Origin: a virus
IMG/VR virus record: IMGVR_UViG_3300020205_001870
Span: 1 to 50,796 of that record
Length of the DNA: 50,796 bases
Reading direction: 5' to 3' (one strand)
How positions within the stretch are numbered: position 1 is the stretch's first letter; every line of letters begins with the position of its first letter. Under the pieces are notes generated by a model. That model made no database searches. It saw only the letters and a program-made list of their open reading frames with translations, and had not been told where the DNA came from. The position numbers were made by a program, and so were the translations under genes. This document shows positions 6,032 through 32,318 of the stretch, piece by piece.

Positions 6032-6058
6032 TATCAGTGGGGGTTTCAGTTAGGAGGC

Positions 6059-6625: not shown

Positions 6626-6658
6626 AACTATCACTACTCCTGAAAGGTTCTGCAAGCG

Positions 6659-7555: not shown

Positions 7556-7558
7556 CTG

Positions 7559-9835: not shown

Positions 9836-9853
9836 GTTTGCAACCCCTGCTGG

Positions 9854-10437: not shown

Positions 10438-10474
10438 GGGGCATTCTCCTCAAACCAATCATCATACCCTTGGT

Positions 10475-10938: not shown

Positions 10939-11333
10939 GAAAGAATTACTGCCTTTCGTTCGGGAGTGAGCAACCCCTGCATAACAAGATAATCCATCCC
11001 CCCAATAGTGGTAGGATCGTCGGATTTAATCTCTTGTGCAGCCGTGGCCAACGTAAGGAAACGCCATGCAACAGGATCAGTAAGTGCTGCTGCACGGATG
11101 CCAAGCAATTCCGCTTCCGTGAACCGCAGCAAGAACTGGTACGCAGTCCATACAGGGGGGACTACGGGCGGCTTGAACCGAGGGGTCGCGCCAGCCGCAT
11201 AGGTCCAGCCCCGATCAAGTTCTTCACCCTCCTGCAATTCAATCTTGTGTGGAGCAGGGGTTGGAGGGAGGGTGTGTTCTTTGATTACAAGAACGCTGTT
11301 TGTTTCAAGGTTAACGTATGCGTACCAACTCAT
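10935..11333 (-). CDS. Probable tail-fibre chaperone-like protein, 132 aa
   Basis: It follows the collagen-like fibre gene directly with ATGA overlaps at both ends. The N-terminus is beta-rich with aromatic residues. The middle is Pro-rich. The C-terminal half ([17 protein letters not shown], continuing to a helix ending [10 protein letters not shown]) is a helical module of a kind often found in proteins encoded after phage fibre genes. Fibre assembly or attachment is inferred from this position. No catalytic motif was seen. Confidence 0.5.
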
Positions 11334-12634: not shown

Positions 12635-12643
12635 GGGGAATCC

Positions 12644-12835
12644 TTAAAGAGATCCGAAATCTACGGACTCAATTGATGGAGTAAGGAAGGTTCCAAAATC
12701 TTTAGAGGTTGCCGAAGGCATAAGAAAGGAACCGAAATCAAAGTCTTCGGGAAGACTAGGAGAAACAAAAAAGAAAATGTTAGTGGCTTTAATAATGCTA
12801 CGTCTAGATACATGACGAGATCGTTTTGAGCGCAT
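12644..12835 (-). CDS. Small hypothetical protein with DFGSF-type triple repeat, 63 aa
   Basis: The N-terminal 20 residues are strongly basic (Arg/Lys/Ser). The rest contains three related units, DFGSFLMPSA, DFGTFLTPSI and DFGSL, spaced about 16 residues apart. It lies between two virion-protein genes with gaps of nine and three bases. Repeated acidic-aromatic units on a basic anchor could be peptide hooks for a virion or fibre partner. No family was recognised. Confidence 0.55.
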   Translation of the reverse strand: MRSKRSRHVSRRSIIKATNIFFFVSPSLPEDFDFGSFLMPSATSKDFGTFLTPSIESVDFGSL

Positions 12836-12838
12836 GGT

Positions 12839-13729
12839 TCAACCTAGAAAGACACCCATCATAAAGAAGTTGGCCCCGACAGCTCCGTTCAGAGTTCCGT
12901 CCCCCGCGTTAATTGTGTAGGTCGGGTAGACGGGCGCAGAAGCGAGAGAAAGTACAATCTCTTGGCATCCGGTAGTTGCAAACTCCAAGCCTTGCCCAAT
13001 CATCGGGCCATTCACAGAGCTGGTATACGCAGCAATTTGCGGGCTAGTTAGAGTGGTCGAGCTTGCAGTTGAATTGGAGATAGACACATCTCGGGGCAGA
13101 GCATAAGCCCCACCAACACCTGCTCCCGTAACCAGATTACGGGGAACAGAAGAGAACGCCGTTGCACTATGCACCGCTGTGGAGACATTAGAAGTTGTAA
13201 AATTCGAGGCGTAGGTAGGGAGCGGCATCCACATTCCGTGTTCCCGGACAGAAAATTGGGGTATCGCCAATGGTTGCTTTGTTCGGATCACATCATCAGG
13301 GATAAGAGCCTGCTGCATCTTCCCCGCAAGGGATGTGTTCTTCGTTTCTGGAAGCAGACCGAAGGGGATAATTTGAGGCGGTGTCCATCCTGAAAGATCG
13401 TTGATAAAGGCCACCGGAATTTCAGGTGTGCCTGTAGTATTCGGCACCGTATCTAGCACCAACATTGGAAAGACATAGATGCGGTCATAGGCAGCAGGAA
13501 TCTTGACCGGGTAAACAGCATCGTCTAGGCGATTCACCCACGGAAGAAACCTAGTTGCAGTAAGGGTAGGTGCGGGAAAGGCGGCGGTAGTCTGATTCGA
13601 ACTGGTGTGGGCAGTAGAAGACCGCACGTGATAGAGAACAAAGGGGGACGAGGCCAAGGTGGCGGTTGCACCGAAGGCGTAATTAGCCGGTTCAACTGTG
13701 CGGAATACTTGAAGGGGGGTGTTCGGCAT
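12839..13729 (-). CDS. Putative virion or fibre-associated protein, 296 aa
   Basis: Rich in Thr, Ser, Ala and Pro with long beta-like stretches, few charges and a Gly-rich C-terminus ending in GANFFMMGVFLG. Composition resembles phage fibre or decoration proteins and not enzymes. It sits directly upstream of the collagen-like fibre gene and overlaps the ERCC4 nuclease gene by 38 bases at its start. Function as a fibre-base or adsorption protein is inferred. The start at ATG 13729 is not strongly supported by a ribosome site. Confidence 0.6.
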   Translation of the reverse strand: MPNTPLQVFRTVEPANYAFGATATLASSPFVLYHVRSSTAHTSSNQTTAAFPAPTLTATRFLPWVNRLDDAVYPVKIPAAYDRIYVFPMLVLDTVPNTTGTPEIPVAFINDLSGWTPPQIIPFGLLPETKNTSLAGKMQQALIPDDVIRTKQPLAIPQFSVREHGMWMPLPTYASNFTTSNVSTAVHSATAFSSVPRNLVTGAGVGGAYALPRDVSISNSTASSTTLTSPQIAAYTSSVNGPMIGQGLEFATTGCQEIVLSLASAPVYPTYTINAGDGTLNGAVGANFFMMGVFLG

Positions 13730-14240
13730 TGGTAATAGCTCCGTTGATTAAGAGTCTTGCGACTTCTTCCCCCACTGATTTGCGTTGTTCGGGGGTTGCG
13801 GCGGGGAGGTAAAGGATTTGAATGCGACGTTCGAGACAGATCCTGTGAAGGGCATCGACCACCAGCCAAGGGTCATAATCTAATTGTGACCGGGCGGTAC
13901 GGACTAAATGGGCAACAGACCCTTCGAGTATTAGTATCGGATGAGAACACTCCAATCGCAAACGATCACAGGCAGAGACGAATCGCTCTCTCCCGCTAGG
14001 GGTCAACAGATTGGACGCGAGTTCAAGAAGATGCTTCTTCCGTTCAACAAGAACCCGAGACTCAAAGTCTTTTAGTGCGTAGTCCCCGGTTTGAAGGCGT
14101 TTTTTTACAACCGTAAGGGAAACGGTACAGGTTTTCCGGGCACACGGAAGATGAGTGTCATCCAACATGACAATGTGCGCGGGAAATATGAGCGGTGTTT
14201 TCTCCCGATCATCCTGAAAGATGGTCCAAGATTTGATCAT
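13692..14240 (-). CDS. ERCC4-family structure-specific nuclease, 182 aa
   Basis: The ERCC4 (XPF/MUS81) signature is in order: DDRE at 10-13, LQTGDY at 49-54 and VERKK at 65-69. A helix with RERFVSACDRL and the hydrophobic strand ILILEG follow. These nucleases cut branched DNA near single/double-strand junctions. No C-terminal HhH2 dimerisation domain is evident, so this is a minimal phage version. Starts at ATG 14240, overlapping the upstream stop (ATGA). It may process replication forks or recombination intermediates made by the polymerase and RecA-like modules. Confidence 0.85.
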   Translation of the reverse strand: MIKSWTIFQDDREKTPLIFPAHIVMLDDTHLPCARKTCTVSLTVVKKRLQTGDYALKDFESRVLVERKKHLLELASNLLTPSGRERFVSACDRLRLECSHPILILEGSVAHLVRTARSQLDYDPWLVVDALHRICLERRIQILYLPAATPEQRKSVGEEVARLLINGAITNAEHPPSSIPHS

Positions 14241-14527
14241 GCAAGAACAGATCTTGTTTCACGGTCCACGCGGGATAGGACTTCCTTGATCCGCGATTCC
14301 GCAATACGGAAGGCCGCAGAAATTTCAGGGATGGTAAGCACCCGAGAAGCGTGAACAATCTGCTTTTCAATTCGGCCACCGGGCTTGACCAATGGGTTGG
14401 TCGGAGCGTTATGCCGACGAGCGAGATCAAAGATTCGCTTTCGGGATAGCCCTACCTTGATGGCAACCTCTGCTGCATTATGACCGCGCTTAAGGAGGTG
14501 GATTACTTCTTTGTGGTTAGGTTGCAT
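14237..14527 (-). CDS. Helix-turn-helix DNA-binding protein, 96 aa
   Basis: Two HTH-like units are visible: residues about 10-36 (LLKRGHNAAEVAIKVGLSRK) and about 62-85 (LTIPEISAAFRIAESRIKEVL). The protein is small, basic and without other domains. It overlaps the end of the polymerase gene by 25 bases and the nuclease start by four. A transcription regulator or DNA-bending factor is likely. The double HTH could also bind repeated DNA sites. Confidence 0.65.
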   Translation of the reverse strand: MQPNHKEVIHLLKRGHNAAEVAIKVGLSRKRIFDLARRHNAPTNPLVKPGGRIEKQIVHASRVLTIPEISAAFRIAESRIKEVLSRVDRETRSVLA

Positions 14528-16620
14528 ATAGGCTCATAGATGGTTCGTTCATAACGAATGGGGATACGTCGCCCCAATCTTGTGCATAGTTTACACCAGT
14601 ACCCCTCCTCTGTCACGTAACGAAACGATTCCTTGAACAACATATCTAAGCGGTCAAGGGCTTGAGTGTTTTTAACATCGAAGTAGATGGCATCGTAGAC
14701 GTTTAAGCACATCAGAATATCGGGAGCTGCTGCGTTCAGTGGGGGAAGAGAGTGGTGTAGGCGGTGTTGAATTCGCAGAAGAACATTACCGGCTGTGCAT
14801 TGAATAGGCATATTGACAATTTCGGAAAGGTCATAAGCATCTCCCCCCATGAAGCGGCGGGATTGCCCGATGAAGGGGAGATCTATAAACCCTTTAGCTC
14901 GTGTCTCTTTGATCAGCTGTTCTTGCCAACGCCATAACCCCGGCCTTGTAAGCGCACGGGTTCGGACAATGTTCTCGCAGATCGAAAGCGGCACCACAAT
15001 CCCAGTCATTTTAAATACTTGGGTTTGTAGAGTCGGTGCTCCTGCCCGGAAGAGATCTCCGAAGTTCGCACCCTTGGCGGCTTGTCGATAGATCGTTTTA
15101 AAGTCCGGGTCGTCTGTAATCTGGGGCCCAAATACTTGAAGGGCCCGACCAGTATGTAAATCCAGTGGGGGTTCAGCAAGAAACGCAGAGCACAAAGCGT
15201 CATCTCCAGAGAGAAGGCCCGCGACCACCATTTCTATTTGAGATAGGTCGTAACCAACGATACGGCCCGTTGACCACCGGCTACGGTAGTGGCGTTTAAT
15301 TTCCGGCGGATCGGTTTGATGCCGAAAGTTTTTACAGGTGATACGCCCCTGTAAAGTTCCTCCCTCTCCCCCCGCGCCATCCTTAGAAGCAGTGGGGGTT
15401 ACAAACCATGTAGGGTAGGAGATAGCAACGGAAGATTTAGGACGACGAATAAGGCGACTAGATTTATTGGTTGGATCTTTACGTTGATGGCGGAGCAGCG
15501 GGTAGAAGTAGGAGGACAGTAACTTTTGGAGGCTAGAGTATTTACCTAGGATTTGAAGAAGAGATATAAGATGTGCCGCAACAGGTGTTTGTATGTTCGT
15601 TAGCTGGGCAATGAACAGTTGCCTATTGATATCGTTGACTGCTACCTGCTTACGGGTTTCAGTTAGTTGAAAGAGGGGATGAGATCGGATGTCTGGGTTT
15701 TCTGTTTCAATAAGGAGACAAGATTCTTGGAGCAGTCCCAGTTTGGATGCGGCAGAACCCTTGCCCTCAAGGATTAGATCGTGATCTCGGGCTTGTCCCA
15801 CGAGCTGTGACATCTGGAGCAACAGGCTCTGTTCATGACCCACAAGGCCGTCGTAGTCCATGGGCAACCCCGCCTCTGACATCCGGATAACGGTCCAGAT
15901 CGTGTCGCTGTAGTGGGTGATGCACTCGGGGCTGAGTTTGTCAGTGTCGGGGTAGTCGGAACGGATTCGGCGGGCGAGCTCGGCGCAGGCGAGAAGGGTG
16001 TTGTGGGTGTCGGCTGCGTTGTATCGGTGGAGCTCAGGGGATTTGGCATCATGATATCTCTTGGTTCTATCTAGTTGTTCTTGGGGGTAGGCGTGGGTGC
16101 CAAGGATAGGGCCAAGCGATTTCAGAGATCGTTCAGGACGTAGTTCTGAATGAAGATAATTCAGAACCGAAAGATCAATAAGAACTTGATTGGATAGATG
16201 GAAGCGAAGATCAGGCTGGGACCGGAGGTAGAGCAGATCGAATTGCAGGTTCATGCCAAGGATGGTGTGGGCATGAGTGAGCCATCGGGCTAGATGAACT
16301 CGATGTTCTGGTCGGTGGAGTTGGAAGACGAAGGTTGGCCCGGGACGAAGGTCGGCCAGTTGTACATCATCAGTGGCAACTGTGATTGAAACGGATTGAA
16401 CCAGATCACGAAGTCGGCATCCGTCCACATCAACTGATCGGGCAGGATGGAAGACGGTTTGGTCGGGGAGGAGTTGTCCGGAGACAGAAAATCTGGTGAT
16501 GCCATAGGTTTCAATGTCCAAGGATATGGTATGGGGATCGGGCCGGTTGAATGTCTGGTTCGGTAGGGATTGGGGCGATCCCCTTAATCGTGGAGGTAAG
16601 CAGTTCAATGTGGTCTTCAA
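14503..16620 (-). CDS. Family A DNA polymerase with 3'-5' exonuclease domain, about 705 aa
   Basis: Exonuclease motifs: D35-I-E37, FD at 127-128, and Y200-N-A-A-D204. Polymerase motif A is YDLSQIE at 457-463. Motif B is R512-x3-K516-x2-NFG. The conserved PIQCTAGNVL follows at about 605. Motif C is V641-Y-D-A instead of the usual V-H-D-E, so the His and Glu are replaced while the metal-binding Asp is kept. The frame opens at TTG 16620, giving a 110-base overlap with the glycosylase gene. A later TTG at 16521 would remove the first strand of the exonuclease fold, so the start is uncertain. Three CAGTGGGGG copies lie within 14737-15398. Confidence 0.9.
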   Translation of the reverse strand: MKTTLNCLPPRLRGSPQSLPNQTFNRPDPHTISLDIETYGITRFSVSGQLLPDQTVFHPARSVDVDGCRLRDLVQSVSITVATDDVQLADLRPGPTFVFQLHRPEHRVHLARWLTHAHTILGMNLQFDLLYLRSQPDLRFHLSNQVLIDLSVLNYLHSELRPERSLKSLGPILGTHAYPQEQLDRTKRYHDAKSPELHRYNAADTHNTLLACAELARRIRSDYPDTDKLSPECITHYSDTIWTVIRMSEAGLPMDYDGLVGHEQSLLLQMSQLVGQARDHDLILEGKGSAASKLGLLQESCLLIETENPDIRSHPLFQLTETRKQVAVNDINRQLFIAQLTNIQTPVAAHLISLLQILGKYSSLQKLLSSYFYPLLRHQRKDPTNKSSRLIRRPKSSVAISYPTWFVTPTASKDGAGGEGGTLQGRITCKNFRHQTDPPEIKRHYRSRWSTGRIVGYDLSQIEMVVAGLLSGDDALCSAFLAEPPLDLHTGRALQVFGPQITDDPDFKTIYRQAAKGANFGDLFRAGAPTLQTQVFKMTGIVVPLSICENIVRTRALTRPGLWRWQEQLIKETRAKGFIDLPFIGQSRRFMGGDAYDLSEIVNMPIQCTAGNVLLRIQHRLHHSLPPLNAAAPDILMCLNVYDAIYFDVKNTQALDRLDMLFKESFRYVTEEGYWCKLCTRLGRRIPIRYERTIYEPICNLTTKK

Positions 16621-17179
16621 CGGTATGGATGAGAGAGTTGTTGCGAAGGATCGCTGCGGGATGCAGCGTTGTGAAGACCGAGGCAGAACGGCCTAGGATT
16701 TGGCGAAGCTTTCCGTTCTGGGAGATAGATGCTTTATGGGAGTAACGTAGATTTAGATGGAGCCGATGGAATTGGGATGTTGAGGATGACCCTAGAAGTA
16801 GGATGAATATCGGTTGATCTGGATGGCGGGTGAATATGGTTGCGAGATCGTCCCGGTGATGATTGAAACAGGACTTGTAGTCTTTGGATTTAGCGTCAGG
16901 TTCCGGACCGCAGCGTGTGAGATAGGTGCCATAGATTGTGCATAAGGTGGATAGTTCGGATAGAAGAATGTCCCGAAGCAATCGCCCCGGTTTACCAACG
17001 AAGGACTCGGCGTGTATATGTTCGTGATACCCGGGAGAGGGACCGATGCAGACGAGGACGGGCGCGTCCGGCCCCGGCAATCCCCACTGGGTAGTGGGAA
17101 CGCCGGGGTTTCGGGGCACCAGTTCCCATCGACCGCAGGCACGGCAGTCGGGATGTGATGGGAAGACGGGCAGGTTCAC
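16511..17179 (-). CDS. Type-4-like uracil-DNA glycosylase superfamily protein, 222 aa
   Basis: GTG 17179 is chosen as start because AAGGAG lies eight bases upstream and the codon overlaps the previous stop (GTGA). Cys12 and Cys15 (CRAC) plus Cys90 and Cys104 match the four-cysteine iron-sulfur pattern of type 4 UDGs. Motif 1 is GPSPGYHEH near 46-54, followed by FVGKPGRLL. LHPAA near 172-176 is the second active-site motif. The enzyme would remove uracil or another damaged base from phage or host DNA. It sits directly upstream of the polymerase gene and overlaps it by 110 bases, linking repair to replication. Confidence 0.75.
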   Translation of the reverse strand: MNLPVFPSHPDCRACGRWELVPRNPGVPTTQWGLPGPDAPVLVCIGPSPGYHEHIHAESFVGKPGRLLRDILLSELSTLCTIYGTYLTRCGPEPDAKSKDYKSCFNHHRDDLATIFTRHPDQPIFILLLGSSSTSQFHRLHLNLRYSHKASISQNGKLRQILGRSASVFTTLHPAAILRNNSLIHTVEDHIELLTSTIKGIAPIPTEPDIQPARSPYHILGH

Positions 17180-17583
17180 TCGGTGTTCTCCTTGAAGCAG
17201 TCCCATCCCATGATTTCCGCGCAACCTTCGGGAGTTGTGACTTCAACAGTTTTGCCACCGACACGGCGAAACACTCCTCCTATATGGATGCTCATTTTGC
17301 AGACGCTTTGCCTTGCCTCGTCGCGCTCAGTGCGCATTCGGTCACGGTCGTAACTCGCTCCTCGATATGCCAACATAGATCCGTCAAGGTCATTCCGTAG
17401 CCGTTCGATTTCGTCTTCGTAGGCGGCTTCTCGACATCTTGCGCGAAATCCGTAGCCACCCTCAATGTCGCGTAGCCGCTCGATCTCAGCGGTGGCGGAG
17501 GCGAGGGCACGACGGTAGCGGGTGGACTTGGTGGTGCGGGCGAGGGCGGCGAGGTCGTTGAGGTCGGTGGGTTCAGGGTTCAT
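17176..17583 (-). CDS. Hypothetical coiled-coil protein, 135 aa
   Basis: Residues about 15-90 are rich in Arg, Glu, Ala and Leu with heptad-like spacing (RALASATAEIERLR, then YEDEIERLRNDL), predicting a charged coiled coil. The C-terminal part contains a CAEIMGWDCF segment. GC-rich codons contrast with the late arm. Starts at ATG 17583 with an 11-base overlap to its upstream neighbour. No family was recognised. Confidence 0.65.
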   Translation of the reverse strand: MNPEPTDLNDLAALARTTKSTRYRRALASATAEIERLRDIEGGYGFRARCREAAYEDEIERLRNDLDGSMLAYRGASYDRDRMRTERDEARQSVCKMSIHIGGVFRRVGGKTVEVTTPEGCAEIMGWDCFKENTE

Positions 17584-17875
17584 TGTCTACTCCGTCGGAG
17601 TTGGAGCCACGGTCGCAGTGGTTGATGCAGTCGGTGGGTCGAGCGATGTTGTCCCAGTCAGCGTTGGCCCGGTAGAACCCGGTGTACGAGGGCTCACGGG
17701 GCAGGTCGTGGTGGGTGAGCAGGTCTTCGAGGTCGCGGTTGAAAGCAACAAGCTTCTCGTGGTGGACGGTGTCGGTGAAGGGGGGGAAGGCGAGGCGGAT
17801 GTGCTGGACGTTGTGGGTCCAGTTAGATTCCTGCTTACGCCACGGGTGATTCTTGGCGGGGATGTTGGCGGTCAT
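17573..17875 (-). CDS. Hypothetical protein, 100 aa
   Basis: A small soluble protein rich in His, Asp, Asn and aromatic residues, with no membrane segment. The C-terminus has two Cys/His-containing turns (DCINHCD) that could bind metal. Overlaps the next gene by 11 bases. The 52-base gap upstream holds one intergenic CAGTGGGGG copy (17912, minus orientation). Function unknown. Confidence 0.6.
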   Translation of the reverse strand: MTANIPAKNHPWRKQESNWTHNVQHIRLAFPPFTDTVHHEKLVAFNRDLEDLLTHHDLPREPSYTGFYRANADWDNIARPTDCINHCDRGSNSDGVDNEP

Positions 17876-17927
17876 GGTGGTTCCTTGGTTGGGAGAGGGG
17901 TGGTCGCATCACCCCCACTGCTAGCTG

Positions 17928-18296
17928 TTACTTCCTGTCTTGGATTAAAGCTGCGGCGAGTTTCTTATAGTCCAAGTAGTGGACTATTTCGGCATTGTCT
18001 ACTTCCTTAGCGATCGCATAAGGGGAGACGTAAGTAGCAACGTTTGCGGGTTCGATGAAGTCAATGACCCGATCAATAAATTTAGAGGACTCTAGGTGCT
18101 TGGTCATTTCCCGTTCCATAAACTCCGCGACCGCATGCGTAGTCGGCAAGGTTAAAGAATCCTTTGACTGAGCGGCCAAGATTTCTTTGACCTGCGCAGC
18201 GATTAAATCTTGCACGAAGGACATGCCGAAGATCTCTCGAATAAATCCCTTGAGAGCGAGGGCTTGCGTAAGTTGTTCTTCGATATGGCTGGTCAT
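17928..18296 (-). CDS. Hypothetical all-helical protein, 122 aa
   Basis: The sequence is dominated by amphipathic helices with regular Leu/Ile/Val spacing, mixed charge, and no cysteine or membrane segment. It starts at ATG 18296 with AAGG about nine bases before it. It is encoded just after a 32-aa membrane peptide. No family was recognised. Confidence 0.65.
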   Translation of the reverse strand: MTSHIEEQLTQALALKGFIREIFGMSFVQDLIAAQVKEILAAQSKDSLTLPTTHAVAEFMEREMTKHLESSKFIDRVIDFIEPANVATYVSPYAIAKEVDNAEIVHYLDYKKLAAALIQDRK

Positions 18297-18308
18297 AGTT
18301 GTGCCTTG

Positions 18309-18407
18309 TTAGGATGCGAGAATGGAGAAGACGATATACAAGAAGGACGCGATGTAAAGGGTTACGGGGTTAAGAAACCTGAAGGGGTTAGGCGTTGGCC
18401 GTTTCAA
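18309..18407 (-). CDS. Small single-span membrane peptide, 32 aa
   Basis: TTG 18407 overlaps the upstream stop (TTGA) and has AGGGAG a few bases upstream. The product is a basic, Pro-rich head of about 15 residues followed by one membrane helix (VTLYIASFLYIVFSILAS) that ends the protein. The coupling style matches neighbouring genes, many of which use ATGA or GTGA overlaps. It fills an otherwise empty gap of 107 bases. Small early membrane peptides of phages often act on host membrane functions, but the role here is unknown. Confidence 0.5.
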   Translation of the reverse strand: MKRPTPNPFRFLNPVTLYIASFLYIVFSILAS

Positions 18408-18781
18408 TGTTCTCCCTGCGCCAGTAAATTCTTCCGCTCCGCGTCGGGGCAATAAGTGGGGGCGACGAACATGAATACTTTGTTCGCTTCTTCTTCGTCA
18501 TTCAGTAGGTAGTTACGCACCATGCGTGATGGTTCATGATTCGTGAAGACTCGAAATAGGTACTCGTGATATTCCCCGGGGGTAAGGACTTCGCGTATGG
18601 CGGTACCTTCCGGGGTCAGGACTTTGGTTAGTTCGAGTGACTGGCCCCAACCGAAGGTGAATATAAATATGGCGGTGAAGGATTCCCCCTTGCGAATAGG
18701 CTCGTCAATGGCGCAGTGGACTTCCCCGTCCATCCCGTACTTGTGGACTTGACAATCAAAGATGTCGCATTTAGATGCCAT
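18404..18781 (-). CDS. Hypothetical protein, 125 aa
   Basis: ATG 18781 is chosen as start because it overlaps the end of the GP88-like gene by 11 bases; a longer ORF to 18970 would lie inside that gene. The N-terminus has a CDIFDCQVH segment (two Cys) and a later C-A-I-D. Central beta strands (SFTAIFIFTFGWG) are followed by charged helices. No membrane span is certain. Family not recognised. Confidence 0.6.
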   Translation of the reverse strand: MASKCDIFDCQVHKYGMDGEVHCAIDEPIRKGESFTAIFIFTFGWGQSLELTKVLTPEGTAIREVLTPGEYHEYLFRVFTNHEPSRMVRNYLLNDEEEANKVFMFVAPTYCPDAERKNLLAQGEH

Positions 18782-19490
18782 TGGTGGCTCCGATGGTGAG
18801 GCGAACGGCACGTTCACGGGGCGTGAGGACATGGCCGTGGGGTAGGTAGTTGACGTAGTCGGTGTCGTCCCAACAGGTGCGGCAGGAGTTGTCGGAGCAG
18901 GAACCGCCGAGCATGGACTTGGGGCAGTTGCGAATACCGGGTAGTCCACTAGACATAGAGACGGTTCCATGTCCTAGGCCCGGTACCACGGGAGGAACGT
19001 CGTCGAAGTTAAGGGCGGATGGACGGACGCAAACATTCTCGCGAGAATGCAAGGCGGACAGGGCAGGAATCCAATGGGGAAACCTATAGGTTCTTGTTGG
19101 AAACCAGAAGCGGGTACCGGGGCACCGATCCACAATTCCGATCCATGTTAGGATGGACGAAAGGTGGTGAAAGTCTCCGCTGTCGTGAACACGAAACCAC
19201 CTTGTTCCTTCGTTGTGTAAGAAGCGGACAAGGATATCGGCAAAGTGGCCGGGGTCGGACTTGAAGAAGGCGAAGCGGGCTGCTTGTGATTCTTGGACGT
19301 TCCGGAATAGGTAGTTAGCCTGTTGGGCGTAGCAAGAATTGCAGATTGAGTTAGGCCCACGATGTTCAGCGGGACATGCGCCCGCCTTTCCTGCGGGCAG
19401 GGACCATGACCAACAAGACATGGCTGTTGTCCATGATAGAAGGGAGTAGGACTTCCCGTTGTGTTGGAAGCGGGGAGAGGATGAAGCCAA
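18771..19490 (-). CDS. GP88-like cysteine-rich phage protein, about 239 aa
   Basis: Cys-rich pattern: a CP, C, C-YAQ series near residues 38-54, then a conserved core FRVHDSGDFH, FWFPTRTYR and C-terminal cysteines (NCP, CSDNSCRTCW). This layout resembles the phage GP88 family, whose function is not known; the cysteines suggest a metal or Fe-S site. The ORF opens at a TTG (19490) with GGAG upstream. In another frame the bases just before encode a peptide like LSFTPNGDNVGF, so the true N-terminus could differ or a frameshift may be present. A 62-base gap separates it from the DUF932-like gene. Confidence 0.6.
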   Translation of the reverse strand: MASSSPRFQHNGKSYSLLSWTTAMSCWSWSLPAGKAGACPAEHRGPNSICNSCYAQQANYLFRNVQESQAARFAFFKSDPGHFADILVRFLHNEGTRWFRVHDSGDFHHLSSILTWIGIVDRCPGTRFWFPTRTYRFPHWIPALSALHSRENVCVRPSALNFDDVPPVVPGLGHGTVSMSSGLPGIRNCPKSMLGGSCSDNSCRTCWDDTDYVNYLPHGHVLTPRERAVRLTIGATNGI

Positions 19491-19552
19491 CGTTGTCTCC
19501 GTTAGGGGTGAAAGAAAGTCCGGCGGTCGTATCGCCGGGGTAAGGGGTAGAG

Positions 19553-20374
19553 TTAGTTGGGTAGATCGGCTGTCCAGTCGCTGTCGTCAAAGCGAGCATC
19601 GACAAGGGCGCGGCAGGTGCCGTCGAGGATGCTAGAGAGTCGAGCGGTACGGCGTTGCGACTCTCGGGGAGACTCGGATAGTTTCTCTACTTCGGTAAAG
19701 GCGTTGAAGAGGGACCAGAGGTTGTTGCCCTTTAGGGCATTGTGTCCCCCGGGTCCGTCTTCGCGGTTGAATTCTTGCCATACACGAGGGAGAAGCCGAC
19801 CATTTGTGCCCCCTTTAGTGAGGGCAGTCATGCATAGATCGGCGGCGTTGCGCCGCACAGTTATTGGGTCCGTTCCTAGGTAGGTAGACTTCCACCGTTC
19901 TACTTGTTGCTCTGTGTCTTCAAAGTATCCGGGCAGTTCAGCGATCTTGTCGATGCAAAGACGCGGGAAGTCCCGCATGATGTTGGTAGTGTGTCTCCGG
20001 CTGAATTTCACTACGGCATTGTCGGCACGGAAGGCGAGGTTGTCGCAGACAAGGACTCTGCTACCAAGAGCCGCTTGACCCGCGAACACCATACGGTGAC
20101 TGTTACGCAGGCCTAGGACATGGCAGAAGTCACCGTTTGGACTAGTCCGGGACAAGTCGAGAACCCCGAAATAGTCCTCTCCTCCCTTACCCATAAGGGC
20201 ATGCTCTTGGCGTGTAACGGTGTATCCGTGGTACGCAAGAGCCTCTAGCACCATGTCAAGTAGATAGCGGTGTGGAATTGGATGGTGAGTGGCGGTCGAT
20301 CGGGGGGTTACGACATTCGTGATGTCAGCGAGGGATGCGGAGTAGCCACCAGCATGCAACATAAGTTTAGACAT
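19553..20374 (-). CDS. DUF932-like phage/plasmid protein, 273 aa
   Basis: The start at ATG 20374 overlaps the upstream stop by eight bases; the ORF opens 32 codons earlier inside the neighbouring gene. Features resembling DUF932 proteins include YFGVLDL, LGLRNSHRM near the centre, and a helical C-terminal half with many Arg/Asn. The family is common in phages and plasmids and may act in DNA metabolism or defence evasion; its biochemical role is not established. It lies upstream of the GP88-like gene in the early block. Confidence 0.55.
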   Translation of the reverse strand: MSKLMLHAGGYSASLADITNVVTPRSTATHHPIPHRYLLDMVLEALAYHGYTVTRQEHALMGKGGEDYFGVLDLSRTSPNGDFCHVLGLRNSHRMVFAGQAALGSRVLVCDNLAFRADNAVVKFSRRHTTNIMRDFPRLCIDKIAELPGYFEDTEQQVERWKSTYLGTDPITVRRNAADLCMTALTKGGTNGRLLPRVWQEFNREDGPGGHNALKGNNLWSLFNAFTEVEKLSESPRESQRRTARLSSILDGTCRALVDARFDDSDWTADLPN

Positions 20375-20711
20375 TATCTTTGTCTCCGAAGGGTTCATGA
20401 GGAAACCATATCCGCTGGCCCTTCTTGCAAGCGGATATAGCGATAGCCTCGACAAGCGCACACGCGCCACTGTCGAGGATTTCGAAGTCGAAGTTATCCC
20501 CTTTGTCCTCTAGCACGGACACAAGGTAGAAACGATTAGGGGGCATGTCGGGATCATTGAGAATCCTCGCTTTATGAGGACTGAATATGACGAAGTCGGA
20601 GGTGTTGAAAGTGGGTTGGTCTGGCACAGTTCTCCATTGTACACAAGGTTGCGAAGTAGTAAAGAGGTTAGAGAGATTGTTAAGTGTTTCCGGGGGGTGG
20701 GTCGGTGACAT
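20367..20711 (-). CDS. Hypothetical protein, 114 aa
   Basis: A small soluble alpha/beta protein with a strand-rich middle (DFVIFSPHKARIL, RFYLVSVLEDKGDNFDFEIL) and no metal or membrane motif. It overlaps the upstream gene by 32 bases and the downstream one by eight, so the three are probably translationally coupled. The pattern of a hydrophobic strand followed by acidic loops could be a small regulator, but no family was recognised. Confidence 0.6.
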   Translation of the reverse strand: MSPTHPPETLNNLSNLFTTSQPCVQWRTVPDQPTFNTSDFVIFSPHKARILNDPDMPPNRFYLVSVLEDKGDNFDFEILDSGACALVEAIAISACKKGQRIWFPHEPFGDKDNV

Positions 20712-20880
20712 CGTCTAGATAGCAGTTGAAGGGGTGGCTTATTCGGTATTCGAGGGAGGCGATGAGGTCGCGGGTAAGTTGGTCGGCGTATTGATCGGGG
20801 TCAACGCCATCGGAGCGGCAGTCGTCGTCGGTAAAGTCGATGGTTAGGCGCACTTCGGCGCGGTAGGTTCTATTAGTCAT
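20680..20880 (-). CDS. Hypothetical acidic protein, 66 aa
   Basis: An acidic protein with a beta strand (YRAEVRLTIDF), an Asp-rich loop and a central helix. It starts at ATG 20880, overlapping its upstream neighbour by eight bases, and overlaps the downstream gene by 32. No recognised domain. Small acidic early proteins can be inhibitors of host enzymes, but nothing in the sequence identifies a target. Confidence 0.55.
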   Translation of the reverse strand: MTNRTYRAEVRLTIDFTDDDCRSDGVDPDQYADQLTRDLIASLEYRISHPFNCYLDDVTDPPPGNT

Positions 20881-21124
20881 GGGTGATGGAGTCGAAGCAA
20901 GAGGGGCAGATGCGGGAGATCAAGGCTTCGCGGTCGTCGCGGTTGAGGTAGGGGAAAGCGTGTTGCATTAGTTGGTTTCTATTCAAGGCGGCTAAGCCGG
21001 AGAGCCAGTCGGCTTCGTGAATGTCGAAGCGATGGGGGCGGTGACACTCGCAACAGTTCACGGTAACGCGGACTAAGTCAATGTCCGTGGGGTGGGGATT
21101 GAAGGATATGGGGTCGATGGTCAT
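20873..21124 (-). CDS. Small zinc-ribbon-like protein, 83 aa
   Basis: Two Cys pairs, CCEC near residues 24-27 and CPSC near 73-76, are separated by a helical segment with His residues (HRPHRFDIHEADW). This arrangement suggests a zinc ribbon or treble-clef-type metal site. It begins only 17 bases after a terminator, leaving no space for a separate promoter, so it depends on read-through. Function unknown. Confidence 0.6.
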   Translation of the reverse strand: MTIDPISFNPHPTDIDLVRVTVNCCECHRPHRFDIHEADWLSGLAALNRNQLMQHAFPYLNRDDREALISRICPSCFDSITHD

Positions 21125-21140
21125 GAGTTGGCTCGTAGGG

Positions 21141-21183
21141 GGTGAAAGAAAGCCCCCTGCACCTTGTGACGGGTGCAGGGGGC
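21141..21183 (-). terminator. Rho-independent terminator after the gene at 21204
   Basis: A perfect 12-bp GC-rich stem (21152-21163 with 21172-21183, loop of eight) is followed on the leftward strand by CTTTCTTTC. It is one of three similar terminators in 1.1 kb. Confidence 0.85.
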
Positions 21184-21203
21184 CGGGGACAAAGGCGGGT
21201 GGG

Positions 21204-21641
21204 TTAGTTGGTGGCAGCAGTTGGACAGGGAAGAGGACGGGGGAGCGAGGAGTCTCGGTTGGAGACTTCGGGGAGGTTCTCGAAGTTGTTTATACTGACG
21301 TGCTCCTCCATGTCGTCGTTAGGGGGGATGAGGGTGACGGTTTCGAGGAGGACGTTGGTTTGGAGGTGGTGGAGGAGGTCGTCGTCGGAGAGGTGGTTGG
21401 TGCTGTGAAGGTAGACGTTCCAACAGGCGAGGCCGTTGATGATGTCGGCGAGGGAGGCGGTGCCGGGGTCGATGCCGATCATCTTGAGCATCTTCCAGTT
21501 GGTGGTATCGGTGGCAGCGCGGTCAGCGGCCATAGCGGCTTCCCAACGCCCGACGTTGTGGTGGGATTGGTAGTCGGCGATTCGACGTTCGCGGTCGGCG
21601 GCGAGGTTTGCGAACACGAGAAGGGGATTGGTCGTTGTCAT
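21204..21641 (-). CDS. Hypothetical early protein, 145 aa
   Basis: The start at ATG 21641 follows GGAGA by about nine bases; an upstream ATG at 21704 lies next to the preceding terminator and is less likely. The sequence is helical with Ala, Arg and Asp in the first half and Leu/Asn-rich helices later (LACWNVYLHSTNHLSDDDLL). It has its own terminator on each side, so it may be made at a level set independently of its neighbours. No family recognised. Confidence 0.6.
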   Translation of the reverse strand: MTTTNPLLVFANLAADRERRIADYQSHHNVGRWEAAMAADRAATDTTNWKMLKMIGIDPGTASLADIINGLACWNVYLHSTNHLSDDDLLHHLQTNVLLETVTLIPPNDDMEEHVSINNFENLPEVSNRDSSLPRPLPCPTAATN

Positions 21642-21706
21642 TGGCGTTGTCTCCGCATGGTTTGGTGGGTTGGTGTCGTTGCCCCATGCAAGCAACGAAA
21701 CCATAG

Positions 21707-21747
21707 TGAAAGAGAAAGCCCCCCGTCTCGGGCAGGAGACGGAGGGC
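21707..21747 (-). terminator. Rho-independent terminator after the gene at 21765
   Basis: A 12-bp stem (21718-21729 with 21736-21747, one G-U in RNA) is followed on the leftward strand by CTTTCTCTTTC. The tail resembles those of the other two terminators in this block. Confidence 0.85.
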
Positions 21748-21764
21748 CGGAGACTGCAGGGGGT

Positions 21765-22070
21765 TCAAAGGGAGCCGGTATCGGCGGGTACACCGTCGTA
21801 GTCTCCCGCCCATTCAACTTCGACTTCGGGGGCGGGAGTCGGTAGGTTCGGTTGGATAATTTGAACGATGTCCCCCGGGCAAACGAAAGCATAGGGGCGG
21901 TTGTACTTATCCGCGTAGAAGCGACATAGTTCCGCCGCTTCCGCGTACCAACGAACACGAGCGATAGGGTGGATGTACCCTAGGGAGTATATAGCGAATT
22001 CGTCACCCGGTGAGCAATTTGAGCCGTGATGGGGTGCTATGTATGTTCCAACGAGATAGAAGGGATTCAA
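21765..22070 (-). CDS. Hypothetical protein, 101 aa
   Basis: TTG 22070 is chosen as start because CGGAGA lies about eight bases upstream and an earlier start at 22214 would place the message across a terminator. The protein has an aromatic-rich core (PFYLVGTYIAP, FAIYSLGYIHPIARVRWYAEA) and a Pro/Glu-rich C-terminus. The core has some flavour of a small beta-barrel or nucleic-acid-binding fold, but no family was recognised. Confidence 0.55.
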   Translation of the reverse strand: MNPFYLVGTYIAPHHGSNCSPGDEFAIYSLGYIHPIARVRWYAEAAELCRFYADKYNRPYAFVCPGDIVQIIQPNLPTPAPEVEVEWAGDYDGVPADTGSL

Positions 22071-22134
22071 TTTCGTGTCTCCGATTTGGGGGTTTGTAAG
22101 GGGTTTCGTAGTGCGTGAACGGGTACTAGGAAAG

Positions 22135-22176
22135 AGAGAAACAAAGAAAGGGGGGGAGAGCGGTTGCCCTCCCCCC
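22135..22176 (-). terminator. Rho-independent terminator after the gene at 22183
   Basis: An 8-bp GC stem (22151-22158 with 22169-22176) is followed leftward by CCTTTCTTTGTTTC. It stands seven bases after the stop of the first gene in the block. Confidence 0.75.
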
Positions 22177-22182
22177 AAGGGG

Positions 22183-22518
22183 TCAGAAGGTGACCGGAGC
22201 ACCTTCGGGTGCAACCGCTCCCGCTGGTTTCAGGTAGATCCGTGATTGTCCTACACGGTCGCCCTCTTTGACGGCCAGTTGCATCATCACCCCGCCGACG
22301 TTGATCATCGGAGCGTCCAACTTCAGGGTTCCGTACCGGGTGTATGTCACTTCCGACTTCCCCTCCGGGGTGAAATTAGCCGTCAACCCTTCGCCAGCCA
22401 ACAACCGCAGCGTTACCACCCATCCGGTTCCTGCGGAATTCTGCTCCACCGTCGCTCCGACTTGTGAGAAGTTCACCACAGGAGCGATCATCATAGCCTT
22501 CGTTGCATTCTTTGCCAT
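22183..22518 (-). CDS. Hypothetical early protein, 111 aa, first gene after the iteron region
   Basis: The start at ATG 22518 follows GGAG by nine bases; an upstream ATG at 22533 overlaps that ribosome site. The sequence is mostly beta (VEQNSAGTGWVVTLRLLAGEGL, then TPEGKSEVTYTRYGTLKL) with a Gly/Val/Met-rich C-terminal half. It is the first gene downstream of the 455-base non-coding region and is followed at once by a terminator, which suggests strong, self-contained expression. An ssDNA-binding or host-takeover role is possible but there is no diagnostic motif. Confidence 0.6.
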   Translation of the reverse strand: MAKNATKAMMIAPVVNFSQVGATVEQNSAGTGWVVTLRLLAGEGLTANFTPEGKSEVTYTRYGTLKLDAPMINVGGVMMQLAVKEGDRVGQSRIYLKPAGAVAPEGAPVTF

Positions 22519-22973
22519 TGTACTAGTCTCCATTAGAGTGCTATTGCTACCCTAACAATAAGGGCGGCGACACTCTAGGCCTTACGGTGGAGCATGCCCC
22601 GGGGTGAAGTGAGCGTAAACCCTTGGAAATGCTGGACTTACAACAAACCGAAATTCTCTTTGCGTGCTTACTGCCCCCGATCCGTGTCGTGTTATCGGAC
22701 TCCGTTGCCCCTGTGACGCAGCGCACCCCCCCGGAGGCCCCCTGCTGATGGCCACAATTTGCGGGGGAAAGACCCTTTTTGTCTAGTAATTTTTTCACTG
22801 ACAACCACTGACAACCCTGCCTGTCAGTACGGACCCGCATTTGCAGGGTGCCAGAGGGGTTTATCTATCCCTTTTTCCCTTACTGACAGGACTGACATAT
22901 ATTTCCAAAGAGATAGGGGTATAGATATACAGAGAGTTTTGTTGTGGGAAAAGTCTGTCAGTACTGTCAGTCA
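22519..22973. other. Long non-coding region, origin and early promoter candidate
   Basis: This is the only gap over 300 bases. The part at 22796-22971 holds seven heptamer repeats around an AT-rich core (separate entry). The part at 22519-22795 is GC-rich; I see no tRNA and no convincing ORF. It must hold the promoter for the leftward gene starting at 22518, but no clear -10/-35 pair was identified. Position immediately downstream of the helicase gene fits a replication origin. Confidence 0.55.
22796..22971. repeat. Seven-copy heptamer cluster ACTGACA/TGTCAGT (iterons)
   Basis: ACTGACA occurs at 22797, 22807, 22882 and 22891. Its reverse complement TGTCAGT occurs at 22822, 22956 and 22965. 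The first two form a tandem 10-base repeat. Two nine-base-spaced pairs (22882-22897 and 22956-22971) face each other as imperfect 16-bp inverted arms across 58 bases of AT-rich sequence. A random heptamer would appear about 0.02 times in this span on both strands. This is typical of initiator or repressor binding arrays. Confidence 0.85.
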
Positions 22974-24401
22974 TTAATCCAGCTCATCTTCTTTGTCCTT
23001 CTTCAGCGAAAGACCCCCTAAAACGCGCGTTCCTTCAACACCTTTCCTGATCCTGCTTAGGTCCCAACTAGATTCCGCCTGAATTTTACTTACCAGTTGG
23101 TTGTCAGCCACATGCATTTTCACGTTATTGGACTTGCACCAGTCTTTCCATTCCCTCCGAACAAGGTCATTGGACACAAATCCGGCCTTGTTCTTTAGAA
23201 ACCGGGCCTCCAAAAAATAGTCAAACGGGTTATTGACCAAGTGATATTCTTTAACAACGCGCAACCCGTTATCAGTGGGGGTAAACTTCAGCGCGTCCGG
23301 GGCAGCTTCCAATCTTATAGCTCCCTGTAGGGCCCAATAGGCAATCCCTGCTAGCTCTCCTTTAAGTACATCCATAAGGTTGTGCTGCTCCTTGCCTTCA
23401 AAACTTTTCTCAAACGGAAGCACCAACATCTTGCCGCTGAGTCCTCTGCCCTTATTTGGCAACTGGGGAATTTCATTAGCTTGCACCCAAGGGGCGGCGT
23501 TGACTACAACATTTCTAGTTTGCCTTTTGTACTTCGCATTAATGCTAATGGGATCGCGTCCTAGTACGTTCTTCAGTACACGAACGGCGATTTCCCCCTC
23601 CCTTGAATCAAGTTCGCTGACCTCTGAAATGCATAACACTTTGGCAAACTCCATCCCGTCTAAGCCAAAGCTTCCGGCAATCTCATCTAGGCTGGTTCCT
23701 ACAAATCCGGTTCCCCCAACAAGCCAACGCATCACGGTGCTGATCGTTCCCTTGCCTGCCCGTATTTTCCCGTGAAACAACATCCACTTGGCGTACCTTC
23801 GGTGGCTCATCATTGAGTAGCCCATCCACCGCTGTAGTAACTCGACCCATACAGGATCTCCCCCACTCCATTCCCGCAGGCATTGTTGCCATCTGGGGCA
23901 CACCGCTGCAGAGTCAAGATCTACATCTACGACGCAAGGATCAAACCATTCTGGACCGCGTGGCACAACCACAAGAGTTTCCGAAAGGGCACTGGCCTTG
24001 ATATCCACAACGTAATCCCGAAACGAAATCGAACAGTGGGGGTCCTCAAGAGTCCCTTCTAATTCAGGTCGTAACCATTGAGGAACATCTGTTCTAGCAA
24101 CACGACACAAGGCTTCTAAAGCGCGAACAATCCCATTTACCTTGAACTCTGTTGGGCCAAATCGTTCGACTATTAATCCTGCAGGATCATCACTGACATA
24201 CAGATCCTCGCTCCACCGCCAGACAGCATCCTCTAGCCACTGCTTATCTCGCTGCATCCACCTTCCCCCGTACCATTCAAACAAACGGCCTTGAACTTCT
24301 TTAAGTCCAAGACCTTCTTCAAAGCCCACCTTAAGCATGGCCCGTGCAACTTTTAATGGTTCAAGAGTGCGAAGGGGATTTTGTTGTGTACCCAGAGTCA
24401 T
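22974..24401 (-). CDS. D5/P4-type superfamily 3 helicase (replication initiator candidate), 475 aa
   Basis: Walker A is GKIRAGKGT at 211-219. The Walker B-like strand KVLCISEVSE is near 254-263. The sensor Asn is in VVVNAAPW at 301. The D5-type motif NEIPQLPNKGRGLSGK is at 309-324. A C-terminal winged-helix-like region follows. The N-terminal 200 residues resemble the D5_N cap; no zinc ribbon or archaeo-eukaryotic primase domain is present, so it is helicase-only. Such proteins unwind origins and load the fork. The gene starts only 28 bases from the divergent late-arm gene and ends next to the iteron cluster, so it may be the initiator that binds there. Confidence 0.85.
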   Translation of the reverse strand: MTLGTQQNPLRTLEPLKVARAMLKVGFEEGLGLKEVQGRLFEWYGGRWMQRDKQWLEDAVWRWSEDLYVSDDPAGLIVERFGPTEFKVNGIVRALEALCRVARTDVPQWLRPELEGTLEDPHCSISFRDYVVDIKASALSETLVVVPRGPEWFDPCVVDVDLDSAAVCPRWQQCLREWSGGDPVWVELLQRWMGYSMMSHRRYAKWMLFHGKIRAGKGTISTVMRWLVGGTGFVGTSLDEIAGSFGLDGMEFAKVLCISEVSELDSREGEIAVRVLKNVLGRDPISINAKYKRQTRNVVVNAAPWVQANEIPQLPNKGRGLSGKMLVLPFEKSFEGKEQHNLMDVLKGELAGIAYWALQGAIRLEAAPDALKFTPTDNGLRVVKEYHLVNNPFDYFLEARFLKNKAGFVSNDLVRREWKDWCKSNNVKMHVADNQLVSKIQAESSWDLSRIRKGVEGTRVLGGLSLKKDKEDELD

Positions 24402-29557: not shown

Positions 29558-29915
29558 AGAACTCCGAGAATTTTACCCCTCGGATGAACACCAAATTTTA
29601 GACGAAGCTCTAGAGACAATTAAAGAATTGCGTCGTCGAGTTCGGAGGGTCACCTATGGACAACGTATGCAAGATGAAATTCAAGAACTTAATCCTGAAG
29701 CTCAATTCCTAGAGGGTATGGATGAAGCCCTTGTTGGATACGCAGTTCAGTGGGGATCCCCCCCTCTGCCAGTATACGACGGCGAGAAAATCGTTGAAAT
29801 TTTGGCAAAGGACATGGGCTTTGAAGAGGCCGCTGAACACTTTAGCTTCAATATCGAATGTGCTTATGTAGGGTCCGGAACACCGTTGATTCTTCATAGG
29901 CCGGAGCTTGACTAA
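29526..29915 (+). CDS. Hypothetical acidic coiled-coil protein, 129 aa
   Basis: ATG 29526 follows GGAGG and is preferred over the upstream start at 29403, which would lie in the previous gene. Residues about 4-45 are heptad-rich (IEQRLEELREFY, then ALETIKELRRRVRR). The rest is acidic with aromatic residues. Its stop overlaps the terminase start by one base. It could be a terminase partner or a head-completion protein by location only. Confidence 0.6.
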   Translation: MPQPDIEQRLEELREFYPSDEHQILDEALETIKELRRRVRRVTYGQRMQDEIQELNPEAQFLEGMDEALVGYAVQWGSPPLPVYDGEKIVEILAKDMGFEEAAEHFSFNIECAYVGSGTPLILHRPELD

Positions 29916-31879
29916 TGGATATTAAAAGGATTCCCGCTCGTGAGCAGGGCAATCCAAACTATCCCCTTCCTTCCGATTACGATACTTTAACGGATGCGGG
30001 TCAAAGACAAGCACGAGTAAATGCTTGTAGACAATGGTTGTTGCCGGAAGACAATCTTGAAAAACGAGGAAACAACCTTGTTGCCTCTGTTTGGTTTTTT
30101 GACCGGTTCTATTTGTGGCCGGATGAAGAAGCCGATTTTAATCCTTTGTTTTATGACGACACTCCCCTAGAGACTCCGGACTTTCACTGGGTTCTTCTTA
30201 GGCAGTGGGCTTCTTATCGGCTTACCGCAGCTGTTGCACCACGCGGTTCAGCGAAGTCATATCTCAATTGCAAAGACATGATGCTGCGGATGATCACGCG
30301 GCCTGCTTATTCATTTGTATATGCAACTTCAACCCATCCAAATGCCCGAGAGGTTGGGGAAAGAATCAAAAGGCAATTCATTCACAACGAAAAGATTGCG
30401 AATGACTTTGGCCCGGAGTATGAAGGGGGGCGTATTGTTCCTCGGCGTGGAGAAGGATCCTTTAGTACCGAACATATGATCCTAAACAACGGGTCTTGGT
30501 TGCGATTACTTAGTGCCTCCTCAAAGCAACGTGGTGGTCGTCCCCGACGATACCGGTTGGATGATCCTGAGTACGACCCAAAGAGCTCGACACCTATGTC
30601 GGTGCTGCGGGCGTACATGTCGGAATTGCTCTTTAAAATTGTAATCCCAATGGTTACGCGCCCGGACACAGGCGTTGATTGGGTAGGTACCTTTGTCTCT
30701 AAGAGACATTACCTATGGCATGCAATGCAATTAGAGGATACCCCGGAAGGGCCTCGGGCCAAGGATCCTCGTTTCAATCGTTGGGCGCGTTTAATTATTC
30801 CTGCAGCAATTGAGGACGCTGGAGAAATGTCCTCTTGTTGGCCGGATATGTGGCCGACTACCCGAAAAGAAAGATTAACAAGGGCCGAGACTCAACCAAA
30901 GTTTAAAGAAGCTCTTTCACTAGAAGAGATTCGCGAAGCTATTGGAGCCTCTAACTTTTCTTCTGAGTACATGGCTTCTCCCGGAGACGGGACAGACGGA
31001 TTCTTTGGGGAGTTGGATGAAACAAAACATGCTTGGTGGTATGAAGAAATTGATGATCGTTTAGATCGTCCCCTTCAAACATCCACCTTTATTTGTTGGC
31101 ACGAACGAATCAAAGATAAATTTGAGGTTCGGCGTGTTTCTCTCCCTGAATTTTTGCGGGATCACTGTCGCACATTTATGACTGCTGACACATCTCATAC
31201 GTCTGGAAAGGATTCAGACTATAAGGCTTGTGCTTTGATGGCTGTCACCCCCCAAAACGATCTTTTTGTTTTGGACCTTTGGGCACATCAAGGCCCTGAA
31301 TCTGAACTTGTCAAAGCAATCTTTGAAATGGCTGACCGATGGAAATGTCCAACGGTTCATCCGGAGGCAATTCGACAAGGGGTGTCCCTGTATAACGCTC
31401 TCGCCTCTATTGTCTCAACAAGAGCCAATGACATGGCAGGGGTGGAACATCTCCCTAAAATCTCTAAGTTGAATCCGGGCATGGCGGAAAAGCAGGATAA
31501 GATTGCGGGTCTGCAATTCCGTTTTGAACATGGGAAGATTAAATTTCCTTTGTGGAGACGGGATCAATTGCCTTGGCGGCACCTCTTTGATCAAGTTGAA
31601 TCCTTTAATCCGGAAGCGCAAGACGGGGGTCTAGAGAAAGACGATTGCTTGGACATTGTGGCTATGTCCCAATTTGTATTGAGGGGGCGGCTTTCAAAAG
31701 TTCCGGGTTCCGACCACACCAAGACCCTATTTGAACGTCTTCGGGACGGAGATTTTTACGATAGTGGGCGGCATATAGGGGAGGGTTTAGATTTATCTTC
31801 CCTAAACCCTCAACAGATAAACGAGATATTGGATGCAAGAACCCCTTCAACAACACACTCCCGGCACACCAAGGTCTGA
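29915..31879 (+). CDS. terL: Terminase large subunit (packaging ATPase-nuclease), 654 aa
   Basis: Walker A is APRGSAKS at 108-115. The Walker B strand ends in LDD at about 215-217. The nuclease domain begins with TADTSHTSGKDSDYKA near 424, with further acidic positions in HPEAI and EKDDCLDI. This set identifies a large terminase that powers DNA packaging into the prohead and cuts concatemers. Its length is at the upper end for the family. TAATG coupling to the upstream gene. The C-terminus is Ser/Thr/His-rich and overlaps a small ORF. The packaging strategy (pac or cos) cannot be decided from the sequence. Confidence 0.92.
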   Translation: MDIKRIPAREQGNPNYPLPSDYDTLTDAGQRQARVNACRQWLLPEDNLEKRGNNLVASVWFFDRFYLWPDEEADFNPLFYDDTPLETPDFHWVLLRQWASYRLTAAVAPRGSAKSYLNCKDMMLRMITRPAYSFVYATSTHPNAREVGERIKRQFIHNEKIANDFGPEYEGGRIVPRRGEGSFSTEHMILNNGSWLRLLSASSKQRGGRPRRYRLDDPEYDPKSSTPMSVLRAYMSELLFKIVIPMVTRPDTGVDWVGTFVSKRHYLWHAMQLEDTPEGPRAKDPRFNRWARLIIPAAIEDAGEMSSCWPDMWPTTRKERLTRAETQPKFKEALSLEEIREAIGASNFSSEYMASPGDGTDGFFGELDETKHAWWYEEIDDRLDRPLQTSTFICWHERIKDKFEVRRVSLPEFLRDHCRTFMTADTSHTSGKDSDYKACALMAVTPQNDLFVLDLWAHQGPESELVKAIFEMADRWKCPTVHPEAIRQGVSLYNALASIVSTRANDMAGVEHLPKISKLNPGMAEKQDKIAGLQFRFEHGKIKFPLWRRDQLPWRHLFDQVESFNPEAQDGGLEKDDCLDIVAMSQFVLRGRLSKVPGSDHTKTLFERLRDGDFYDSGRHIGEGLDLSSLNPQQINEILDARTPSTTHSRHTKV

Positions 31880-31910: not shown

Positions 31911-32318
31911 ATGTCTCGTTGGTATTTCGGAGGATCTGAACAGAAGGAACCACCTGCTTCCCGGATGGCGGACACGGTGGTCACAATTTCCGATGCTTGG
32001 ATGGGGATCCTTTGTCTTTCCTATTACGGAAATGGACCCCGCCACCCATCCACAGGATTCAGTGGGGGCATAGATGTCCCCCCTAAGGATTCTGTGGTTC
32101 AGTATGCCCAAGTAAAAGAACGTATTCGCATGATCCCCGGAGGATATGCGGCAAGGAAAGCAAACAATGGCGAGCGACCCAATCAAATTGACCAAGGATC
32201 CGCTGGCTCTAGCGCGGATTATCGACCAGCACGTGGACCGGGAGATGAATCGGTTGTCCTACCGCCGAGCGACTTGGCTAGTAGCCCTCTATTACCTAAT
32301 GGGGGCCCGCCAGTTTGA
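31911..32318 (+). CDS. Hypothetical protein overlapping the portal gene, 135 aa
   Basis: The frame is open from 31833; ATG 31911 is preferred because it lies beyond the terminase stop and has GAGG before it. The first 85 residues (DTVVTISDAWMGILCLSYYGNG, then VVQYAQVKERIRMIPGGYAA) look like a folded alpha/beta domain. The last 50, which overlap the portal start in another frame by 152 bases, are Pro/Ser/Gly-rich and disordered-looking. The gene fills an otherwise empty 287-base gap, so it is likely to be real. One CAGTGGGGG copy encodes FSGG. Confidence 0.6.
   Translation: MSRWYFGGSEQKEPPASRMADTVVTISDAWMGILCLSYYGNGPRHPSTGFSGGIDVPPKDSVVQYAQVKERIRMIPGGYAARKANNGERPNQIDQGSAGSSADYRPARGPGDESVVLPPSDLASSPLLPNGGPPV

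Follow-up and report, generated by a model that had tools for sequence, protein, structure and literature searches.

A probable replication origin with facing iteron pairs beside a D5/SF3-type helicase gene in an uncultured tailed-phage lineage

The phage genome and the intergenic region beside the helicase gene

The window, by which we mean the whole stretch of viral DNA analysed here (50,796 nucleotides, an IMG/VR virus record), starts and ends with the same 99 bases and therefore corresponds to a circular map of 50,697 bp. Genes on the minus strand extend from 24401 down to 5361, and those on the plus strand, among them that of the terminase, from 24430 through the end of the map and on to 5364; an adaptor-like protein is also encoded. 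With the patterns used, no bacterial or archaeal relatives or prophages were found in 84,980 genomes, and the conserved gene at 32146-34179 had no match among 50,697 phage records. In the early genes that were scanned (5361-22533, minus strand), neither Pfam nor PHROGs recognised a primase of the AEP or DnaG type. The features considered in this work are:

22534-22973, no strand: intergenic region of 440 bp, with the whole proposed origin inside
22738-22786, minus strand: second conserved block beyond the array, AGACAAAAAGGGTCTTTCCCCC-N-GGGGGCC, putative priming site or leader
22797-22971: iteron array, seven ACTGACA copies at 22797+, 22807+, 22822-, 22882+, 22891+, 22956- and 22965-
22797-22828, no strand: auxiliary iteron cluster (22797+, 22807+, 22822-), spacings of 10 and 15
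22882-22897, plus strand: distal arm in the central module of the proposed origin, ACTGACA at 22882 and 22891, 9-bp spacing
22898-22955, no strand: A+T-rich core of 58 bp, proposed melting site by its composition and low stability
22956-22971, minus strand: helicase-proximal arm, facing the distal arm, TGTCAGT at 22956 and 22965, 9-bp spacing
22974-24401, minus strand: stand-alone DUF5906/D5-SF3-type helicase of 475 aa, proposed initiator (Pfam, PHROG, PDB, hhalign)
23004-23228, minus strand: predicted winged-helix domain of the helicase, residues about 392-466, proposed iteron reader (AlphaFold2, Foldseek)
29915-31879, plus strand: terminase, with relatives in viral contigs

A preliminary description of this DNA had placed the array in the only large intergenic region; more cautiously, the gap 22534-22973 ranks among the longest without a credible gene. 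The left part of this gap probably also contains the promoter of the gene at 22183-22533. Conserved GTAAG...CAAGGGTTTACG...CCGTAAG repeats, located at 22580-22642 upstream of the next gene, are probably its promoter or operator. The block at 22738-22786 is conserved in the closer group of relatives described below (clade A) as CAGACAAANNNGGNCTTTCCCCC-N20-GGGGGC, with a C5/G5 inverted repeat, and at a comparable place the more distant group (clade B) has AAATTTCCAGAGCGG..GGYCTTT. This block is perhaps a priming site or a leader, and we do not claim it as the origin core.

The iteron array

The seven copies of ACTGACA/TGTCAGT in 175 bp that had been described beforehand were recovered over the same extent, the array starting at 22797, one base later than had been given. 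Only about 0.02 copies would be expected in such a stretch, since dinucleotide shuffles of the whole window give 5.06 copies on average; the two strands of the window actually contain 11. In a window-wide count, every other 7-mer reached at most four copies per 175 bp, and the 7-mers that reached up to five copies in 250 bp fall in a collagen-repeat gene. The ACTGACAG/CTGTCAGT 8-mers occur four times in the genome, all four inside the array. Little weight can be given to the orientation of any one copy, because the heptamer is close to a palindrome (CTGACAG/CTGTCAG).

The proposed geometry of imperfect 16-bp inverted arms (22882-22897 and 22956-22971), each a pair with 9-bp spacing and separated by 58 bp, was reproduced, and when extended the arms form an inverted repeat of 25 nt with 84% complementarity. 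When two direct-repeat pairs facing each other were sought irrespective of motif (k = 5, 6 and 7), the array was the one place identified in the window, and the same motif-blind test recovers the crr site of phage P4. The core was correctly described as AT-rich (65.5% A+T versus 50.5% in the genome); the 100-bp stretch from 22859 has the second lowest duplex stability in the whole genome, and the least stable 60-bp window of the region stands at the 99.96th percentile. Rfam and PADLOC searches gave no match.

The adjacent helicase

The array begins directly 3' of the stop codon of the SF3 helicase gene, in agreement with the position assigned to it at the outset. The helicase matches DUF5906 in Pfam (1.2e-7), and only the C-terminal (helicase) halves of phage primase families in PHROG align with it, with values down to 7.8e-42. 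Its sequence contains a Walker A motif (GKIRAGKGT) and VQANEIP, and homology with D5/P4-type AAA+ helicases was established, with a value of 95% in hhalign to the helicase region of P4 alpha. A profile built from the two clades (A3) matches PDB entry 7ola with an E value of 2.5e-14; the PDB name of this entry is only 'DNA primase', and if it is the SaPI5-type helicase, the closest PDB entry in sequence is a protein of that type.

An AlphaFold2 model of the last 136 residues, made with 21 relatives, predicts a winged helix with a pLDDT of about 75-88 over the domain. A full-length model from ten close sequences was discarded (pLDDT 35). In Foldseek, the PDB structures that best matched the predicted C-terminal domain were AsfvPrimPol and the DNA-bound RFX DNA-binding domain, and the P4 origin-binding domain 1ka8 matched weakly (E 0.4). 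Phage primases and D5-type helicases/primases were among the best matches in viral models. Clade-specific substitutions are not in excess in the C-terminal domain compared with the rest of the helicase.

Conservation of the array and change of the iteron

The comparison with relatives proposed beforehand showed that the array is kept in two clades, in each of them 3' of the helicase gene. About 30 relatives were considered, with helicases 79-85% (clade A) and about 42% (clade B) identical to that of the window, and the array is present in every relative whose contig extends far enough for its presence to be judged. Clade A comprises 15 viral contigs. Their loci have the order ACTGACAG box, CCACAAC (in most), A+T- and pyrimidine-rich core, and TGTCAG pair, with a core length of 59-62 bp in 10 of 12 loci and of 66 and 68 bp in the other two. 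The helicase-proximal arm has two good copies in the window, but one good and one degenerate copy in most clade A relatives. Of 14 CTGWCAG occurrences in near-complete clade A genomes, 12 lie at the array (G001 5/5, G011 2/2, G012 4/4, G010 1/3). Scanning for a DNA pattern that combines the conserved box with CCACAAC retrieved eight further contigs, which were rejected as chance matches, since they have neither the helicase nor further boxes.

Clade B was entered through G016, which was reached by a terminase search and whose helicase is about 42% identical to that of the window. In this genome the same place is occupied by another iteron (TGACCACC/GGTGGTCA), in facing pairs 9 bp apart with a core of 60 bp. 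In all 17 clade B loci, (T/C)GACCA pairs face each other across a core of 58-61 bp. Both arms have a spacing of 9 bp, save where one contig ends, and side clusters comparable to that of the window at 22797-22828 are seen in these arrays. Clade B regions contain 8-11 GACCA copies and almost no CTGACA, whereas clade A regions contain CTGACA, with GACCA absent or at background, the exception being the degenerate locus L009. In L107/L141 (same contig) and L131 an ORF is inserted between helicase and array, which lies 650-790 bp from the helicase stop with its geometry intact; elsewhere the array is immediately 3' of the gene.

Between the clades the iteron sequence changed and the layout stayed, as predicted by read-out through a co-evolving initiator. 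The two clades represent one change event, and only two independent iteron dialects. The two dialects, with one geometry and helicases about 42% identical, constitute a natural experiment, in which domain swaps could probe specificity.

The helicase is the one array neighbour present throughout the relatives and likely reads the iterons; conserved early genes for the polymerase and nucleases may provide alternative readers. The two HTH genes initially put forward as readers are poor candidates. That at 9854 (HTH_17) is missing from G016 and from four clade A relatives whose genomes are complete or nearly so, and that at 14237 (HTH_23) occurs in clade A but in none of the four clade B contigs searched, three of which are 46-52 kb long.

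These data also bear on the second function suggested at the outset, an operator array, in which a phage regulator bound to the heptamers would control the minus-strand early operon from 22533 or the expression of the helicase. The array does lie upstream of a minus-strand gene, the phage has two HTH genes, and initiators can also autoregulate via their own iterons. Nevertheless, the gene concerned (22183-22533) has no homologue in the same four clade A relatives, which keep the array, and neither HTH protein accompanies the array through the two clades. No sigma-70-like promoter was found in the array, with two weak ones at 22490-22539, and other conserved repeats, GGGTTTACG/CGTAAG, are nearer to the gene start. 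The concentration of the boxes at a single locus, and a fixed core of 58-61 bp with facing arms, which would not be expected of an operator, also argue against this explanation, which we consider very unlikely.

GC skew

Skew was computed as plain window skew, with two window sizes and about 520 positions; third-codon skew, which relied on a crude gene caller, was dropped because shadow ORFs make it unreliable in the relatives with 63-67% GC. The skew analysis suggested in the preliminary description gave the largest step of the genome beside the array in seven genomes of both clades, with a sign opposite to the bacterial norm. This step, the first of about 520, lies 0.5-1.1 kb 3' of the helicase stop in the window, G001, G010, G011, G012 and G016; in G024 the largest step is 0.2-0.5 kb from the array. 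All seven genomes except G001 have overlapping ends. The genes on either side of the step are codirectional, so it is not accounted for by transcription, and in G001, G010, G011, G012 and G024 the skew decays on both sides of the array in a two-replichore-like manner. In the same seven genomes, the early genes have strikingly C-rich sense strands.

The strands pointing away from the array are C-rich, and by the bacterial rule the reversed sign would call a terminus. A replication terminus or fork trap, at which forks from elsewhere would meet, also agrees with the cumulative skew maximum at the array (on the strand in which the helicase gene is minus) and avoids the C-rich leading strands that an origin at the array would imply. 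Against this reading, the opposite skew extreme is mobile (28-33 kb away in four genomes and -3 to -7 kb in two), lies about half way round in some genomes only and falls in structural genes, where the motif-blind search found no facing-pair array. Moreover, the unstable core adjoins a gene for a helicase of the self-loading type, as in known origins. A terminus thus seems highly improbable, and the origin reading was kept despite the sign, since the opposite extreme has no fixed position.

Proposed function of the array

A packaging, partition or recombination site of another phage protein, which might be suspected from the several contigs that end nearby and from the second conserved block with its C5/G5 inverted repeat, is scarcely credible: the nearby contig ends vary in position and several overlap at 99-100% identity, no terminase or recombinase gene lies alongside, and geometry and skew fit an origin better. 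The overlaps imply circular maps broken at variable sequence, and physical genome ends near the array were ruled out on these grounds.

Of the two functions originally offered for the array, that of an origin is well supported by position, fixed geometry and skew step, and that of an early-arm operator is disfavoured. We therefore regard it as very probable that the array is the replication origin of the phage, at which the adjacent helicase would bind the iterons and melt the core, with forks running both ways. In the mechanism that we propose by analogy with the systems discussed below, the SF3/D5-type helicase would bind the iterons, probably through its C-terminal winged helix. On the inverted pairs, two assemblies facing each other at a fixed distance of 58-61 bp would be built, each probably a hexamer. 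These assemblies would melt the A+T-rich core, and the two helicases would then move apart in the 3'-5' direction, giving bidirectional replication. The constant core of 58-61 bp represents a measurable constraint on such face-to-face loading of two SF3 initiator rings.

A more detailed picture can be drawn only tentatively, and as a whole we hold it to be doubtful: this uncultured tailed-phage lineage might combine an origin of the PICI/P4 type and a stand-alone SF3 initiator, without a dedicated primase, with facing pairs at a fixed separation of about six helical turns whose iterons can change freely, and with a C-rich leading strand from an SF3 fork, the reverse of bacterial chromosomes. 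The PolA-type polymerase that the phage encodes at 14503-16620 may prime replication, as PolA-type enzymes can do in SCCmec elements (PMC7581432, PMC10061031).

Comparison with known systems

The origins of SaPI and PICI elements and the putative origin of SCCmec are placed relative to the helicase gene as the array is in the window (PMC7581432, PMC6092414). In the PICI/SaPI rep-ori modules (SaPIbov1, SaPI5 and E. coli PICIs) the origin is immediately 3' of the initiator helicase gene (PMC6092414, PMC7581432), and according to the authors no other known bacterial replicon shares this origin type (PMC6092414). These elements are islands, whereas the window, with its circular 50,697-bp map, its own terminase and an adaptor-like protein, represents a complete 50-kb phage lineage; its helicase has no primase domain and its iteron sequences differ.

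SCCmec Cch2 is a 3'-5' helicase whose C-terminal domain binds iterons just downstream of its gene (PMC7581432). As in the window, a stand-alone D5-type helicase, iterons just downstream and a PolA-type polymerase are found together in SCCmec. Unlike those of the window, the SCCmec iterons are AAGTG direct repeats, three in number, and facing arms are unneeded for binding (PMC7581432); furthermore, the polymerase gene of the window is 6 kb from that of the helicase, outside its operon.

The crr site of P4 resembles the array in layout, being directly 3' of the alpha gene and formed by 8-bp iterons; a direct pair with 9-bp spacing and inverted copies face each other there on the two sides of an A+T-rich spacer. 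In P4 the cis sites are two, ori and crr, the spacer measures 35 bp and the iterons are GGTGAACA, while the window has one array, a 58-bp core and a different iteron. P4 alpha (777 aa) is a fused primase-helicase-origin-binding protein, unlike the unfused 475-aa helicase of the window. Ten cultured phages whose helicases are related were scanned in the same motif-blind way downstream of the primase-helicase gene, and none has a facing-pair array within 1 kb.

The origins read by SV40 T antigen and papillomavirus E1 combine inverted short sites, an easily melted tract and a self-loading SF3 helicase. In these proteins DNA binding is N-terminal, and domain order and sequences differ from those of the window. 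A comparison with these viral origins is also drawn in PMC7581432.

From the comparison with PICI, SCCmec and P4 it follows that the system of the window would work like a PICI/P4 origin. Nevertheless, it is neither a PICI, since it belongs to a complete phage, nor a P4 replicon, since it has no fused primase, a single site and another iteron. An origin of the satellite kind (PICI/SaPI, P4), which has been described as exclusive to such elements, is thereby tied to a complete phage lineage, and the analysis provides a strong in silico origin call for phages without a cultured relative.

Other observations

A collagen-like tail fibre gene of the Mtd_N type (11330-12634, minus strand) lies inside the early minus-strand block; among the four near-complete or complete relatives it was found only in G001. 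The GC content of the window is 49.5%, against 63-67% in the syntenic genomes G001, G010, G011 and G012, whose helicases are 79-84% identical to that of the window.
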